Positions 10,135 to 32,110 of a stretch of DNA of 38,756 bases are shown here, in pieces. The stretch is taken from the IMG/VR virus record IMGVR_UViG_3300002460_000087, positions 1 to 38,756 of that record, one strand, 5' to 3'. Source of the stretch: a virus. The translations under genes were made by a program, and so were the position numbers. Within the stretch, counting starts at the first letter, position 1. Every line of letters begins with the position of its first letter. The notes beneath the pieces are model-generated. The model did no database searches and was not told the origin of the DNA. It saw only the letters and a program-made list of their open reading frames with translations.

Positions 10135-10766
10135 GATCCTAACCCAGCCCTTTCCGCTCCACGCTGCCAAAACGCGGTCGGCTCCATGTCCCGCGTCACG
10201 TACCACGGGTCGATCCGGTGGCAGTGGGTGTAACCATCGACCGCCTTAATCACGCCGGACATTCCGAACGAACAGTAGTCGTGAACCAGTACCAGCCCGC
10301 CTGCGCGGACCTTCGGAGCCCAGCGAATGATTCCCTGAACGCAAGCGTCGAACGTGTGGTCGTCGTCGATGTTCACCGCGTCGAGCGAACCGTCCTCGAA
10401 GTCGTCCACCGCGTCGAGGGAAGCCTTCCGGAGAATCGTGAAGCCGTACTTCTCGGCGTGAATCATGGCCGCAGCGTAGATTTTGTCCTGACTCTCCTGG
10501 GAGACCCGGTGATAAGCCCGGTAGGGATCAATGCAGGTGAGTTCCAAGTCGGGAATTCGCTCGCGCCAGAGAATCGCTGAGTGCCCGTAGCGGGTGCCCA
10601 CTTCGACCATCCTTTTCACCCCCATGTCCCGCATGACGAGGGCCAGGGACTCGCGTCCCATCCCGCTTCTTCCTGTTCGCTGGAGGGATGTCGCCAGAAT
10701 CGGCAGGTTATCCAGTCCACCTTGAAAGCGGAAGTGTTTCTCAAGAGCTTTTCGTAAGTCCAGCAC
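10131..10766 (-). CDS. Class I SAM-dependent methyltransferase
   Basis: 211 residues. The GTG at 10766 follows GAGGAGGAG at ideal spacing and overlaps the upstream gene by 26 bases. Motif I is VEVGTRYGHSA (about 54-64), motif II CIDPYR (78-83), and the motif IV region is AVNIDDDHTFDACVQ (130-144), followed by GGLVLVHDY (156-164). This is the layout of the Methyltransf_24-like family, which often methylates sugars or small molecules (family knowledge). It is flanked by glycosyltransferases on both sides and overlaps both, so it was probably kept for the same pathway. A methylated glycan product is inferred. Confidence 0.8.
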   Translation of the reverse strand: MLDLRKALEKHFRFQGGLDNLPILATSLQRTGRSGMGRESLALVMRDMGVKRMVEVGTRYGHSAILWRERIPDLELTCIDPYRAYHRVSQESQDKIYAAAMIHAEKYGFTILRKASLDAVDDFEDGSLDAVNIDDDHTFDACVQGIIRWAPKVRAGGLVLVHDYCSFGMSGVIKAVDGYTHCHRIDPWYVTRDMEPTAFWQRGAERAGLGS

Positions 10767-11481
10767 GGCGCTCCTCCTCGATTCCTTGGTTGTAAAATTT
10801 CGTGATGTCGGACGCCCGGCCCCAGATCGGGATATCCCACGCTTTGAGTTCGCCAGTTTTGCGTTCCAATCCAGGCGTGTCAATGTAGGTTTTGGACAAG
10901 CCTTGCGGGTGGCAGAGGTTAACCATTGGTTCAATGCAATACCACTCGACACGCTTGCGGCGCGTTACCCGCAAATTTCTTTCAACCGTATCCCGGCCAA
11001 TCTCTCCACCGAATCTGCTCCCGTCTGGATACTTAGCCTCTCGTTCTTCGAGCGCCTCGATCACCAATTGTCGAGGCCCGATCATGGTAAAGTTGCCATG
11101 CCGACGAATCGCCGAGAAGAACGGCTTCTCCAACCATGAAAACACGGACCATCGCGACATGTCGTAAGCTACGGCGTCGTCCGGCGGCCGGAAGTCGCTG
11201 AAGTGCCTAGCCGGATACAGCGTGTCGTCCTCCGCCACGGCCACGTACTTTGTCTCGGCCAGTTTTGCGCCACGCAACAATTGGACATACACGTTCCAAT
11301 CCCAGAACGGACCAGACTGGATGAGGTACTTCGTGTTCGCCCGGCGCAAGTCCATCACTTCCTTCGAGATGATCACCAGCGGCCTGTCCTCGATCGCCCG
11401 CAACAGATGCCCCATGTGGAAATTTTGCCACACATGGGGCATCTGGTTGACGGTCAGGTAAATTACGGTCAGGTCGGACAT
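10741..11481 (-). CDS. GT-A-like glycosyltransferase
   Basis: 246 residues, ATG two bases after the stop of the Ser/Pro-tailed gene. The first strand-like segment is LTVIYLTVNQMP and the metal site is probably AVAEDDTLYP (residues 81-90, E84-D85-D86). Later elements WSVFSWLEKPFF and RRHGNFTMIGPR resemble the acceptor region of phage GT-A-like proteins that I have seen annotated only as glycosyltransferase or hypothetical. No TM segment. The start of the glycan cluster immediately downstream of a mucin-like protein gene is notable. An inactive GT-A relative is also possible, because the second half is not recognisable to me. Confidence 0.62.
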   Translation of the reverse strand: MSDLTVIYLTVNQMPHVWQNFHMGHLLRAIEDRPLVIISKEVMDLRRANTKYLIQSGPFWDWNVYVQLLRGAKLAETKYVAVAEDDTLYPARHFSDFRPPDDAVAYDMSRWSVFSWLEKPFFSAIRRHGNFTMIGPRQLVIEALEEREAKYPDGSRFGGEIGRDTVERNLRVTRRKRVEWYCIEPMVNLCHPQGLSKTYIDTPGLERKTGELKAWDIPIWGRASDITKFYNQGIEEERRAGLTKSS

Positions 11482-16033: not shown

Positions 16034-16067
16034 GCCTCCGGGGGCGCAAAAGCACGCCCCCGGAGGC
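16034..16067 (-). terminator. 13-bp perfect stem-loop after lectin-like gene (terminator or attenuator)
   Basis: Arms 16034-16046 and 16055-16067 are perfect complements with an eight-base loop CAAAAGCA (plus strand). On the transcribed minus strand it lies 11 bases past the stop of the gene at 16078-16929 and about 36 bases before the next start. It is followed only by a TTTT, so termination may be partial, allowing expression to be lower downstream of the capsid genes. It is embedded in two near-identical 21-base direct repeats (16021-16041 and 16043-16063, one mismatch). Confidence 0.6.
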
Positions 16068-19174: not shown

Positions 19175-19498
19175 TCAATCTCCGTATCCGCCGTCTGCGT
19201 CATGCAACGGAATGGGACGCATTAGCCCCACTTCCTTGCGTCCACGACGGCTTGTGATTACCAGTTGTCCGTTGTCTTTGACCTGCACTCCCTGAATGCC
19301 GTGCCGCTTAATGGCTTCTCGCATTTCAGGAACTTGACTTTTCATGCAACCGAGTCCGTCAGAAATCAGCGGGTCGTGTTCGGTGTAAGTATTGGCCGTC
19401 ATCGGCGGCCCGTCCAACCAGTTATCTTTACCGCCCGCCTGGAATTCCTGCAAGCTAACTTCCTTGCCGTCCAACTTGTAGGTGACTTTGTTACTCAA
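19175..19498 (-). CDS. Small hypothetical protein between portal and scaffold
   Basis: 107 residues from TTG at 19498. The TTG forms a TTGA overlap with the portal stop and has a strong GGGGAGG ribosome site eight bases upstream, which favours this start over longer ones. Two bases separate its stop from the scaffold ATG. Contains VTYKLDGKEVSLQEFQAGG and a C-terminal basic strand region (VKDNGQLVITSRRGRKEVG). Position suggests a head-assembly function, but no family is recognised. Confidence 0.7.
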   Translation of the reverse strand: MSNKVTYKLDGKEVSLQEFQAGGKDNWLDGPPMTANTYTEHDPLISDGLGCMKSQVPEMREAIKRHGIQGVQVKDNGQLVITSRRGRKEVGLMRPIPLHDADGGYGD

Positions 19499-21276
19499 GC
19501 TGGTCGCCTCCCCATCGCAGCCTTCTGACTGCCGTTCTGTTGTGGCTTGCCGCCCAACAGCGACTGGATCATGGCCGCCGACCGGGCCTCTTGCGTGCCG
19601 CCGGTGGGAATGTTTCGCCGAACGGTCTCGCGCGACGTGACCGGCGATTGCCGGACGGTGTTTTGATCGCCGCCCAGCATGTCCGCGGGCGAGGCGAAGG
19701 TGATGAACCGCTTGAACTCGGGACGATTTTTCAGGCGGGCAATCTCGTCGACGATCGCTTCCGCGTCGAGCGTCGCGCCCGATGCCTGGAACATCGGCCA
19801 CAGCGGGGCAATCTGCTGCAACACCTGGAAAAGCTCTTGGAGCTTTTGTTCAGGAGTCTTGAACACCATCGAGTACGGCTCGACCTTGAAGTCATAGTCC
19901 TCGAAGCTGCCGACCCGATGATCCGGCGTCCAGTTGGAGCGGACGTGGATACCAGAATTGCCAACCGGCATCGAAGATTGCAATTCAAGGTTTTGATCCT
20001 CCCACATCAACCGCCCCAGGTCCAAAATGCAATCCGACGCAAACGACACGACCGCCATCCGCATGTCGGCTTCGGAGCGGGACACCGCGCCGTGGATCAA
20101 CTGTTCTTGGCCAACAGTGGCCGCCTGCGCGCCCAAGCCGCCCATCGCCAGCAGGTTCCCGGCAAACCGATCGTATTCGTCCTGGATGAACGTGGCCAGC
20201 GCCATGTCCCGCTGATCGACGCCGCCGAATTCCACCTGATTGATTGACTTGGGATCATTCAACCGGACCCATGAATTCCGTTCAGCAGTGCGAAGTTTCT
20301 CGGCATCATCGGCGGCGCTGGGTGGATACACGTTGATCACCCGATGGGCATCCGAATCCTTCTCCATTCGACGATGCAAGCGGTTCTGAAGATCGTGCAT
20401 CCCCTTCAGGTTCACGGCCGGCGAGGCCGGAATCACGTTGTCCGGTACGTTGCCCAGGGACAGGAACTTGTAGGGGCCGGCTTGGCTGCCCGTCCAGTCG
20501 CGTTCGATCAACGGCGGCAAGTCCTGATCGACGGCCATCGTGGCGACCGTGTTGTTTTCCGCGATCCACAAGTCTTGCAACCAAACCATGTCCTTCAGGT
20601 CGTCATCTTCGGCGTCCCCTGAGCCGATCTCGCGGGCCGCGCCGGTAGTTTCCTGTTGCGTGCGTTTGGTCGATGTGAGTTGATCCTTGACCTTCTTGTC
20701 GTAGCCCGGCTCGTCCATGACCTTTTCGTAATCGGCGCGATACCGATGCCCGCAGTACCGCATCTTCGTCAGTTCCTTGGCCGACATATCGAGAATCAGG
20801 TCGTCGAGCGAAACCCGATTCAGCCACGGCTCGCCCGGATCAAGCCAGACGTCCTCTTCGGATTCCAGGAGCCCGTGGAACCGGGTGTCGGTGTCTCGCA
20901 TCATCACGACGCCGCAACCGATGCAAAAGAATGCGTCCAAGACGATCGCCCGGAACGTGGCATCGAGGGCCATGTCGCCGATGAGCTTGTTCAGGTTGAC
21001 CTCGAACCGCATGGCGAAGGGCCAGTTCTCGACCAGCGGCGTCGAGACCATGACCTGGGGATTGTTCGCGGCCAGGGCGATCGTGTAGATGCGAGCCGTC
21101 TGGTTCATCAGGTTGACGAGCGTCTTGTTGCGAGCCCCGCCGTCGCTGTACCAAGACCCGGTGTAGTCGCGGATCAGTTCCTTACGGATGCGGCGAAACG
21201 GTTCGAGCGACTCTCTAGAAGTCTTGACGGCTTTCAGCAGCCGGCCGCGTTTCTCTTTGTCGTGCAGGTCGATCAT
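19495..21276 (-). CDS. Phage portal protein
   Basis: 593 residues, the usual size of podovirus-like portals. Features: an N-terminal basic helical segment (LEPFRRIRKELIRDYTGSWY), the clip/stem zone with VVMMRDTDTRFHGLLESEED (residues 123-142), YKFLSLGNVPDNVIPASPA near residue 272, and helical SADDAEKLRTAERN-type crown segments. The C-terminus is Gln/Ala rich. It lies directly downstream of the terminase gene and upstream of the scaffold, as expected. The portal is the dodecameric ring at one capsid vertex through which DNA passes. No strong ribosome site is visible before the ATG. Confidence 0.85.
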   Translation of the reverse strand: MIDLHDKEKRGRLLKAVKTSRESLEPFRRIRKELIRDYTGSWYSDGGARNKTLVNLMNQTARIYTIALAANNPQVMVSTPLVENWPFAMRFEVNLNKLIGDMALDATFRAIVLDAFFCIGCGVVMMRDTDTRFHGLLESEEDVWLDPGEPWLNRVSLDDLILDMSAKELTKMRYCGHRYRADYEKVMDEPGYDKKVKDQLTSTKRTQQETTGAAREIGSGDAEDDDLKDMVWLQDLWIAENNTVATMAVDQDLPPLIERDWTGSQAGPYKFLSLGNVPDNVIPASPAVNLKGMHDLQNRLHRRMEKDSDAHRVINVYPPSAADDAEKLRTAERNSWVRLNDPKSINQVEFGGVDQRDMALATFIQDEYDRFAGNLLAMGGLGAQAATVGQEQLIHGAVSRSEADMRMAVVSFASDCILDLGRLMWEDQNLELQSSMPVGNSGIHVRSNWTPDHRVGSFEDYDFKVEPYSMVFKTPEQKLQELFQVLQQIAPLWPMFQASGATLDAEAIVDEIARLKNRPEFKRFITFASPADMLGGDQNTVRQSPVTSRETVRRNIPTGGTQEARSAAMIQSLLGGKPQQNGSQKAAMGRRPA

Positions 21277-29808: not shown

Positions 29809-30252
29809 ATGAAGAACGTGCAAAAGATCATCGACCTACTTGGCGGCGACGCCTTCCGACACGTCAAGCTGGAGTGCGGCGGGTTCATGCCGCTCAGCAT
29901 CGAGCGCATCGGCACCTTTGGCCCGAACAACCTGCCCATGTTCAGCGTGTGCCACTACGGCGAGCAAAACGGTGACTTGATGGCGGACCCCGAGATAACG
30001 TTCGTTGTCAGCCGGACGCTGAAAGGCTGGTTGTGGACGCCGGTTTCGTTCCGCAACGACTACGCAGGCATCTACCAAGAGGGCGAACGCGGCGCGATGT
30101 GGTTCGACGAGAGCGGCAAGGCGTGGACTCGGCCGCGGCTTCTCAAAGACCTGAAATCGTTCGCGTCCCAGTGGGACCGCAACCTGAAGGCTCAAGGCTT
30201 TGTCGATGCCGCATTGAAGCTGGCCAACAGCATCGCGATCTTCGAAGGCTAA
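29809..30252 (+). CDS. DUF6908-like protein
   Basis: 147 residues; CAGGAG lies upstream of the ATG. The order MKNVQKIIDLLGG, LPMFSVCHYGEQNGDLMADP, WTPVSFRNDYAGIYQEG and RPRLLKDLKSFASQWDRNLKAQGFVD matches what I recall of the DUF6908 family, common in phages and integrated elements and without known function. Length is also typical. Family assignment is from memory and needs a profile check. Sits in the rightward operon downstream of the strong promoter. Confidence 0.62.
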   Translation: MKNVQKIIDLLGGDAFRHVKLECGGFMPLSIERIGTFGPNNLPMFSVCHYGEQNGDLMADPEITFVVSRTLKGWLWTPVSFRNDYAGIYQEGERGAMWFDESGKAWTRPRLLKDLKSFASQWDRNLKAQGFVDAALKLANSIAIFEG

Positions 30253-30329: not shown

Positions 30330-30590
30330 GTGTACCGGACACCCACGCAATACGTGCAGCATGTGGTCAACGGCGGCGACCAAGCCGACGACGAGACGGA
30401 ACGCATAGACGAGACTCGCCGGAGCAAGATCGAACGGCCGAGCATCTGCGAATACGGATGCAGAGAAGTGTTCGATAAGACTAAGGGCGTTCGCCACGAC
30501 TTGCCGAACAGCCCGCTGTTCTGCTCGACGCTGTGTGCGTACCGACATAAAAAGCGGACGCTGGCAAGGGCGGGCGTGATGATGAAGTGA
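30330..30590 (+). CDS. Small Cys-containing (zinc-finger-like) protein
   Basis: 86 residues from GTG at 30330, preceded by AAGGAG. ICEYGCREVFDKT followed by LFCSTLCAYRHKK gives two Cys pairs compatible with a zinc finger; the ends are charged. Start choice follows the ribosome site. Possibly a nucleic-acid-binding accessory protein; not recognised. The structured region 30601-30803 follows it. Confidence 0.62.
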   Translation: MYRTPTQYVQHVVNGGDQADDETERIDETRRSKIERPSICEYGCREVFDKTKGVRHDLPNSPLFCSTLCAYRHKKRTLARAGVMMK

Positions 30591-30600
30591 ATCGAGCCAC

Positions 30601-30803
30601 TGGCGCGGCGTAGCGCCAACGGCGTGCCGACCTTGTTGGATCTGGGGTCGGCACGTTATTGGAACTATTTCACGCAATTGACCGCCAGCGGACAGACTGC
30701 TCTAATGCGTGCGTCGTATCCGAATCTCCCAACTAATCAAACACCCGCCGCGCGGATTCGCTTGGCCATTCTTGGCTATTCGGATACGACAACCGCGCGG
30801 CGG
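30601..30803 (+). ncRNA. Candidate structured RNA / leader with interleaved inverted repeats
   Basis: In 203 bases without a convincing coding frame there are five perfect complementary pairs: 30601-30606/30613-30618, 30623-30632/30646-30655, 30671-30676/30706-30711 (with an inner 4-bp pair including one wobble), 30713-30725/30778-30790 (13 bp) and 30745-30755/30793-30803 (11 bp). The last two interleave (A-B-A'-B'), which would form a pseudoknot in RNA. It ends 19 bases before the HNH endonuclease ATG. It could be a fragment of a group I-like intron, a regulatory leader or a recombination site; none is established. Confidence 0.5.
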
Positions 30804-30821
30804 CATTTAATTGGTTACGAG

Positions 30822-31403
30822 ATGAAACAACGCCAACTATTCGAAAAGCAGCGGGTTGAAAAGCGGTGTCCTCTCTGCAAGGAGATTAAGTCCGCCAATG
30901 AGTTTTCGACCAAGAAAACAGACGGTAGTTTGCATTGCTGGTGCAAGGTCTGTTGTATCAAGAAGTCTCGTGAATGGTATCACGCGAACAAAGATAAGCA
31001 CCGTGAGTATCAAAGAAAATGGGCAGCCAAAAATAGAGATAAGACGCGAGCGAGAAATAAGGCGTACGCGCGTAGGCATCCAGAACAAATCAAGGAAAAG
31101 GACCGTCGTTTTAAAGAGCGGCGACCAGATTATTCGAGAGATTGGAGACTCCAGAAGATTCACGGGATAACACTTGCCCAATTCAATGACATGCTCTTCG
31201 CTCAGGGCGGTTCATGTGCCGTTTGTGGCACATCCTCGCCCGGAGCACATTTTAAAAACTTACTGGTTGACCACGACCATGACACAGGTATGGTTCGCGG
31301 CTTGGTCTGTAATGACTGCAATCTTCTTCTAGGACATGCAAAAGATTCGCCATCTCTCTTACACGAGGCCGCCGCTTACCTAGTGCGGTGGAACAAGCAA
31401 TGA
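30822..31403 (+). CDS. HNH endonuclease, recombination endonuclease VII-like
   Basis: 193 residues from the ATG at 30822; a longer in-frame start at 30624 would run through the structured region and encodes an unconvincing N-terminus. The C-terminal half shows CAVCGTSS (132-139), LLVDHDHDTGMVRGLVCNDC (147-166) and N167, the zinc-bound HNH core of the endonuclease VII family. The N-terminal CPLCK and CKVC pairs add a second zinc-ribbon site, and a long basic linker lies between. Base composition is A-richer than the neighbours, which suggests recent transfer. Its stop overlaps the recombinase start (ATGA). Confidence 0.8.
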   Translation: MKQRQLFEKQRVEKRCPLCKEIKSANEFSTKKTDGSLHCWCKVCCIKKSREWYHANKDKHREYQRKWAAKNRDKTRARNKAYARRHPEQIKEKDRRFKERRPDYSRDWRLQKIHGITLAQFNDMLFAQGGSCAVCGTSSPGAHFKNLLVDHDHDTGMVRGLVCNDCNLLLGHAKDSPSLLHEAAAYLVRWNKQ

Positions 31404-32110
31404 AAGTTATTTTGTACGCGAGGTTTTCACCTCGCCCACTTGCCTCGGAATGCGAATCGGTCGAATCCCAACTCGCCGAATTGCGAGCCTACTGCGTGCA
31501 GCACGGCCACGAAGTCGTGGGAGAATTTTCGGACAAAGCGCTGTCAGGCGGCAGCGATTGGGACACGCGGCCGGGAATGCTCGACGCGGCCAACGCCTGC
31601 ACCCGCGGCATGGTGTTCCTGGTGCGGTCGTACGACCGATTGTTTCGCGACATCGATAAGGCGACGATGTTCCGCGCGATGCTCGAAGCCAAGGGCGCGG
31701 AGGTCCGCAGCATCACCGAGCCCGGTGCCAACGGCGACAGCATGAACGCCAAGTTGATCCGCTTCGTGTTCTTGTGGATCGCGGAGTATCAGCGCGAGCT
31801 GACCAGGGCGCGGACCAAATCCAAGATGCTCGAACACCAGCGCGGCGGCCGGCGAATGAGCAAGGAGCCGCCTTACGGCACGTCCATCGACCCCATGGAT
31901 ACAGACCGGCTCGTGCCCAACGACGACGAGCGGGCCGTTATCGAGGTCATCAAGCAGATCTGGGCCACCGGCAAGCCACTGCGCGCCATATCGCGGCATT
32001 TGAACGAGGCAGGAACCCCCAACCGTAGCGGGCAAATCTGGCATCACAACCAGATCAAGCGGATTTTGGTGCGGGAAGGCGTCTGGGAGAAGCCTGGGAC
32101 GCCGCGCTGA
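31400..32110 (+). CDS. Serine recombinase (resolvase/invertase family)
   Basis: 236 residues coupled to the HNH gene by ATGA. The N-terminal catalytic domain has YARFS with nucleophile Ser10 and flanking Arg8, then SYDRLFRD (77-84) matching the DRLxR motif. A linker at about 120-150 (AEYQRELTRARTKSKML) is the expected long helix. The C-terminus (LRAISRHLNEAGTPNRSGQI, HHNQIKRILVREGVW) is a helix-turn-helix DNA-binding region like those of recombinases. The protein is much shorter than large serine integrases. It may act as an invertase or resolvase, or as part of a small mobile cassette with the HNH gene. Confidence 0.82.
   Translation: MKVILYARFSPRPLASECESVESQLAELRAYCVQHGHEVVGEFSDKALSGGSDWDTRPGMLDAANACTRGMVFLVRSYDRLFRDIDKATMFRAMLEAKGAEVRSITEPGANGDSMNAKLIRFVFLWIAEYQRELTRARTKSKMLEHQRGGRRMSKEPPYGTSIDPMDTDRLVPNDDERAVIEVIKQIWATGKPLRAISRHLNEAGTPNRSGQIWHHNQIKRILVREGVWEKPGTPR

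Follow-up and report, generated by a model that had tools for sequence, protein, structure and literature searches.

The window analysed here, a 38,756-nucleotide stretch of viral DNA comprising positions 1 to 38,756 of IMG/VR record IMGVR_UViG_3300002460_000087, contains a long predicted hairpin that ends in the start codon of a free-standing Endonuclease VII gene. Judging from folding models and from the likeness to known phage leaders, we give even chances to the reading that this hairpin is a cis-acting 5' leader that damps translation of an inserted endonuclease gene. We infer that the RNA is made, that it folds in this way and that it represses. In the mechanism we propose, mRNA reading through from the upstream genes would fold into the stable hairpin at 30724-30823, the 3' arm of the hairpin would cover the translation start region together with the first two bases of the AUG in a gene that lacks a Shine-Dalgarno sequence, and translation of the nuclease would thereby be kept low or late.

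The predicted leader hairpin and the interleaved repeats

The hairpin is about 100 nt long (30724-30823, + strand) and has a predicted folding energy of -47.7 kcal/mol. It is built from an 11-bp core, described below as helix B, and from outer stems in which AACTAAT pairs with ATTGGTT and ATCTC pairs with GAGAT (in the RNA, AACUAAU/AUUGGUU and AUCUC/GAGAU). The GAGAU arm includes the A and the U of the start codon ATG at 30822, both of which are paired in the predicted fold. Likewise, when 360 nt are folded, the start codon and positions -18 to -1 are mostly paired. The predicted fold thus has the arrangement that defines a start-sequestering hairpin, namely a 3' arm lying over the ribosome-binding region and/or the start codon. 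When the + strand was scanned in 1289 windows, each 110 nt long, the one at 30721-30830 came out as the most structured, with a z-score of -9.2 as compared to -5.3 for the runner-up. The energy required to open positions -18 to +6 is 11.3 kcal/mol, which is above that of most genes of the same phage and inside their range of 2.9-14.3 kcal/mol. It does not exceed that range because AU-rich pairing makes up the outer stem at the start, and the core upstream accounts for the extreme stability.

No Shine-Dalgarno word is present upstream of 30822, either in the hairpin stem or elsewhere in the leader, and the hairpin could act like known sequestering hairpins only through coverage of the start codon region. 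A search for promoters within the hairpin found none that was convincing. A weak -10-like hexamer, TTTAAT (30806-30811, + strand), lies in the 3' arm, matches a -10 element at five of six positions, has no -35 and is noted as a lead only. The collections of phages and viral contigs that we searched yielded no close relative of the leader.

Two perfect inverted repeats interleave in this region, and all four of their arms are given here on the + strand. The 5' arm of helix A, GTCGTATCCGAAT (30713-30725), pairs over 13 bp with its partner A', ATTCGGATACGAC (30778-30790), and the 5' arm of helix B, CCGCCGCGCGG (30745-30755), pairs over 11 bp with B', CCGCGCGGCGG (30793-30803), which ends 19 nt before the start codon. 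The gap from A to A' is 52 bases, the gap from B to B' is 37 bases, and A' and B' are separated by a spacer of two bases, AA. An earlier, sequence-only reading of this DNA had described interleaved helices of 13 and 11 bp, and we confirmed their coordinates, their A-B-A'-B' order and the two-base spacer. With the gap limited to 120, the window has three perfect inverted repeats that are 13 bp or longer, as compared to 0.23 expected, and seven that are 11 bp or longer, as compared to 1.5 expected. Helices A and B, each taken alone, would be found less frequently by chance than observed. A single interleaved pair in which both helices are at least 11 bp long occurs in the window; none of 60 simulated windows contained such a pair, and none was found in 912,657 bases (0.91 Mb) of related phage loci. 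Additional copies of A or B within the window are at chance level, with no excess, and a search of viral contigs for the exact A..A' pattern returned no match.

The sequence-only reading had also placed five independent complementary pairs in a structured box of 203 bases, 30601-30803. That stretch is structured (fold z = -4.4 on the + strand and -4.8 on the other strand), but the box ends too early, since the hairpin runs on to 30823. Helices A and B were recovered together with perfect pairs of 10 bp (30623-30632/30646-30655) and 6 bp (30601-30606/30613-30618), whereas the remaining pair, of 8 bp (30603-30610/30746-30753), is incompatible with B, and no independent fifth pair was singled out. 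The 6-bp pair belongs to a small hairpin, TGGCGC-GGCGTA-GCGCCA (30601-30618, + strand, -11.0 kcal/mol), that follows an 86-aa ORF. Folding lengthens the 10-bp pair to a GC-rich hairpin of 14 bp (30622-30656, + strand, -22.3 kcal/mol), also after the 86-aa gene, whose stem is terminator-like without a T run and which is absent from the list produced by our terminator scan. The structure around helices A and B is clearly real and non-random.

Two other inverted repeats were noted elsewhere in the window. A perfect 15-bp repeat with a gap of 12 (11404-11445) lies within the beginning of an ORF on the minus strand (10741-11481), in the 110-nt window that ranks second for structure (z = -5.3). The other, of 13 bp with a gap of 8 (16034-16067), is also perfect; it is terminator-like and sits where two genes of the minus strand meet.

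The endonuclease gene, its start and its neighbours

The free-standing Endonuclease VII/HNH gene (30822-31403, + strand) encodes 193 aa and has a GC content of 0.478, as compared to 0.577 for the window. Its product matches PF02945 (Endonuclease_7) with 78 bits, as compared to a cut-off of 23.6, and the PHROG for endonuclease VII with an E value of 2e-32. The protein has both the CxxC pairs for zinc binding and the catalytic DHxH motif expected of a PF02945 member, and residues C16, C19, C41, C44, C132, C135, D150, H151, H153, R159, C163, C166 and N167 are invariant among its homologues. The two preceding genes on the same strand have the Shine-Dalgarno sequences AAGGAG and AGGAG, whereas the endonuclease gene has none.

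Translation probably starts at ATG 30822. This start puts 15 aa ahead of the first CxxC, and homologous proteins, which have a median of 8 aa ahead of that motif and seldom 59 aa or more, agree with it in starting near the first CxxC. The frame is nevertheless open for 66 codons ahead of ATG 30822, from 30624, with alternative starts at GTG 30624 and ATG 30705, and its codon score (0.012) is the best of the six frames. These features would fit a region that encodes an N-terminal extension of the endonuclease, with the repeats being incidental. We consider this very unlikely, given that an open frame of this length arises in 7.5% of shuffles, that its GC content by codon position is flat, unlike that of the phage's other genes, that neither alternative start has a Shine-Dalgarno sequence, and that the proteins of relatives mostly begin near the first zinc motif. 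Nor did searches of phages, viral contigs and PHROGs turn up a homologue of the 66-residue upstream translation.

Upstream of the leader, the 86-aa ORF (30330-30590, + strand) has the AAGGAG Shine-Dalgarno sequence and its own stop, and no family was found for it. Further upstream, 29809-30249 encodes a DUF6908 protein, for which a search of the phage collection found relatives in Leptospira phages LE3 and LE4 only (32%). Downstream, a small serine recombinase of 236 aa (31400-32110, + strand) has its own start, which overlaps the endonuclease stop (ATGA). Searches of viral contigs returned no relatives for either the 86-aa ORF or the recombinase, and a search of genome contigs returned none for the recombinase.

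Related phages could be identified through the portal protein, which has at least 126 relatives in viral contigs, the best 80 loci being 75-84% identical. This SU10-like portal protein (19498-21276 in the window, and in loci L013-L092) belongs to a common phage group with contigs of up to 79 kb. None of the 80 related loci encodes the endonuclease as judged by tblastn, although many of these loci are fragments, so that its absence from each phage is not proven. The PF02945 profile found no match in 20 related records, where the built-in control of the search gave no signal either, and did find the family in the window itself, and an Endonuclease VII search of genome contigs returned distant homologues only. 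With its low GC content and its absence from the 80 related loci examined, the endonuclease gene looks as though it had been inserted, together with its leader, ahead of this phage's recombinase gene. Occurrence in this phage only, next to a low-GC and probably inserted gene, would also be expected if the repeats were a functionless by-product of mutation or insertion. We find that quite improbable, since a hairpin with a z-score of -9.2 that ends in the start codon, together with a second rare helix, is unlikely to have arisen without selection.

One related locus, L020, has a syntenic recombinase that is 39% identical and is ATGA-coupled to a methyltransferase-like gene, without an endonuclease. 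No such repeats lie ahead of this recombinase gene, and the locus has only a repeat cluster more than 0.1 kb past the end of the recombinase. The small serine recombinase holds the same position in two otherwise diverged phages (31400-32107 in the window and 821-1483 in L020), with a different ATGA-coupled upstream gene in each. Elsewhere in L020 (3600-5000, minus strand), a leader like CACAAGGGAGACNAGAGACAATG is repeated ahead of several consecutive small genes.

The proximity of the recombinase bears on whether the repeats act as DNA. They might be bound by the serine recombinase or by some other protein that binds DNA, or extrude as a cruciform that is cut by Endonuclease VII. In favour of this are the coupling of the recombinase and nuclease genes, the perfect match of the long repeats as DNA, and the action of T4 endonuclease VII on branched DNA. 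By eye, however, no recombination half-sites with a two-base core were seen, A and B are no more frequent elsewhere in the window than chance predicts, and a cruciform is unlikely to extrude across gaps of 52 and 37 bases. Overall, we regard a DNA-level site as rather improbable. A recombination site for the neighbouring recombinase, as the sequence-only reading had proposed, may lie here, but L020 lends it no support, its syntenic recombinase having no such repeats ahead of it.

Competing helices and other RNA readings

Helices A and B cannot form together without a pseudoknot, and as nested helices they are mutually exclusive. The best fold of 30700-30845 has an energy of -46.8 kcal/mol when A is enforced and -55.9 kcal/mol with B. 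Thus, after transcription has passed the start codon, B is favoured by about 9 kcal/mol, and the resting state should be B unless something holds A. The pseudoknot that had been suggested from the interleaving of A and B was set aside, given that the nested, extended B hairpin is stable without it and that the two-base spacer between A' and B' is tight; the interleaving itself stands, with the two helices better described as alternative folds. When growing transcripts were modelled by folding of successive prefixes, A prevailed where the 3' end lay at 30790-30800 or at 30806-30810, and transcripts that reached about 30815 or beyond folded mostly into B.

This succession raises the question of whether A/A' and B/B' are evolved alternatives of a bistable RNA switch, in which A/A' would form first and allow translation of the nuclease, and B/B' would form later, or under another condition, and turn it off. 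The order seen in prefix folding, in which A stands alone at ends 30790-30800 and gives way for the most part to B from about 30815, and the fact that chance would seldom produce either helix speak for such a switch. We nevertheless judge it unlikely, since B is the better fold of the full leader by so wide an energy difference, no homologue that might show covariation was found in the collections searched, and no ligand or protein is known. A more specific version, in which A and B would be a co-transcriptional bistable switch timing a mobile Endonuclease VII cassette and the coupled serine recombinase, with one leader for both enzymes, strikes us as quite doubtful on these folding models. 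A leader hairpin that damps translation, the reading we prefer, does not alone account for helix A. Such damping might be relieved in either of two ways: as in T4, a transcript could begin within the hairpin, or the competing helix A/A' could form, which would be the first to do so in transcription and would leave the start region less structured.

We also considered RNA classes that are associated with HNH genes. Searches of Rfam at gathering and at relaxed thresholds (E <= 5) found nothing credible, including for the group I intron and HEARO, and a tRNA/tmRNA search found none. The proposal that the region is a fragment of a group I intron was not supported: no Rfam match pointed to a conserved P3/P7 core, no gene is split on either side, and the flanking genes are complete. 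HEARO/IscB loci share the layout observed here, in that a structured RNA sits directly upstream of an HNH gene. This likeness is the reason to weigh a trans-acting or guide-like RNA, such as HEARO/omega RNA, or an intron remnant tied to the HNH gene. We think any of these extremely unlikely, as there is no matching Rfam family, the 193-aa protein belongs to a different nuclease family (Endonuclease_7, 78 bits) with no Pfam IscB-type domain, and split exons are lacking. The suggestion of an undescribed noncoding RNA was sound in that a structured element does lie ahead of the HNH gene, and that element is better specified as a cis-acting mRNA leader.

Hairpins at other Endonuclease VII genes and in known systems

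Comparable start hairpins occur at a minority of other Endonuclease VII genes. An upstream z-score of -4 or lower was found for 8 of 89 Endonuclease VII genes, as compared to 8 of 300 control genes (Fisher p = 0.014), a post hoc comparison that uses automatically picked starts, depends on the choice of start and includes the near duplicates L171 and L175. The median upstream z-scores are -0.49 and -0.24, respectively. Since most of these genes have no such hairpin, we rejected the idea that hairpin leaders are general to Endonuclease VII genes. In a locus from an Actinomadura genome (L194, about 1959-1997), an 18-bp hairpin with a z-score of -7.3 has the Endonuclease VII ATG in the 3' arm of its stem, and strong hairpins in L138 and L168 likewise have the Endonuclease VII ATG in their 3' arm. 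In L168 (about 1900-1940), the promoter-like sequence TTGACA-17-TAGCAT overlaps the start hairpin, which is the arrangement of the hairpin-nested promoters of T4. If the hairpin in the window works as we propose, the presence of such hairpins at unrelated Endonuclease VII genes in L138, L168 and L194 suggests that the solution has arisen repeatedly. In a further locus, L173, a PhotoRC-II RNA (26-121; Rfam, 58.9 bits) lies about 1.2 kb upstream of the Endonuclease VII gene.

Silencing of inserted endonuclease genes has been described mostly from T4-like phages. Hairpins sequester the ribosome-binding site or AUG of I-TevI, I-TevII, I-TevIII and segB of T4 and of mobE of Aeh1, and in T4 and its relatives the long early transcripts are untranslated while shorter late transcripts are translated (PMC2988022). 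As with these genes, the gene in the window encodes a phage endonuclease, lies on a polycistronic strand and has a predicted stable hairpin over its start. In the known examples the stem contains a Shine-Dalgarno sequence and the hairpin is accompanied by a late promoter, whereas the gene studied here has no Shine-Dalgarno sequence and no convincing promoter. In Aeromonas phage 25, the ribosome-binding site of seg43(25) is immediately preceded by a hairpin of very high stability (PMC2988022), and the present leader resembles that one in having extreme stability immediately 5' of the start region. In seg43(25) the ribosome-binding site directly follows the stem, whereas here an outer AU-rich stem continues into the AUG.

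The Shine-Dalgarno sequence and/or AUG lies inside a helix in T4 e, soc, 49 and I-TevI (PMC3014915), and gene 49 encodes T4 endonuclease VII (reference 60 of PMC2988022), a member of the same protein family as the product of the present gene. Gene 49 is T4's own resolvase, whereas the gene studied here is accessory and was not found in relatives. If our preferred reading is correct, start-codon sequestration extends to a Shine-Dalgarno-less Endonuclease VII gene of an uncultured phage group. The review's account of I-TevI, I-TevII, I-TevIII, segB and Aeh1 mobE contains no competing interleaved helix (PMC2988022). The second, competing helix thus makes this leader somewhat unusual among known leader hairpins, and the interleaved A and B helices would offer a concrete switch that is open to testing.
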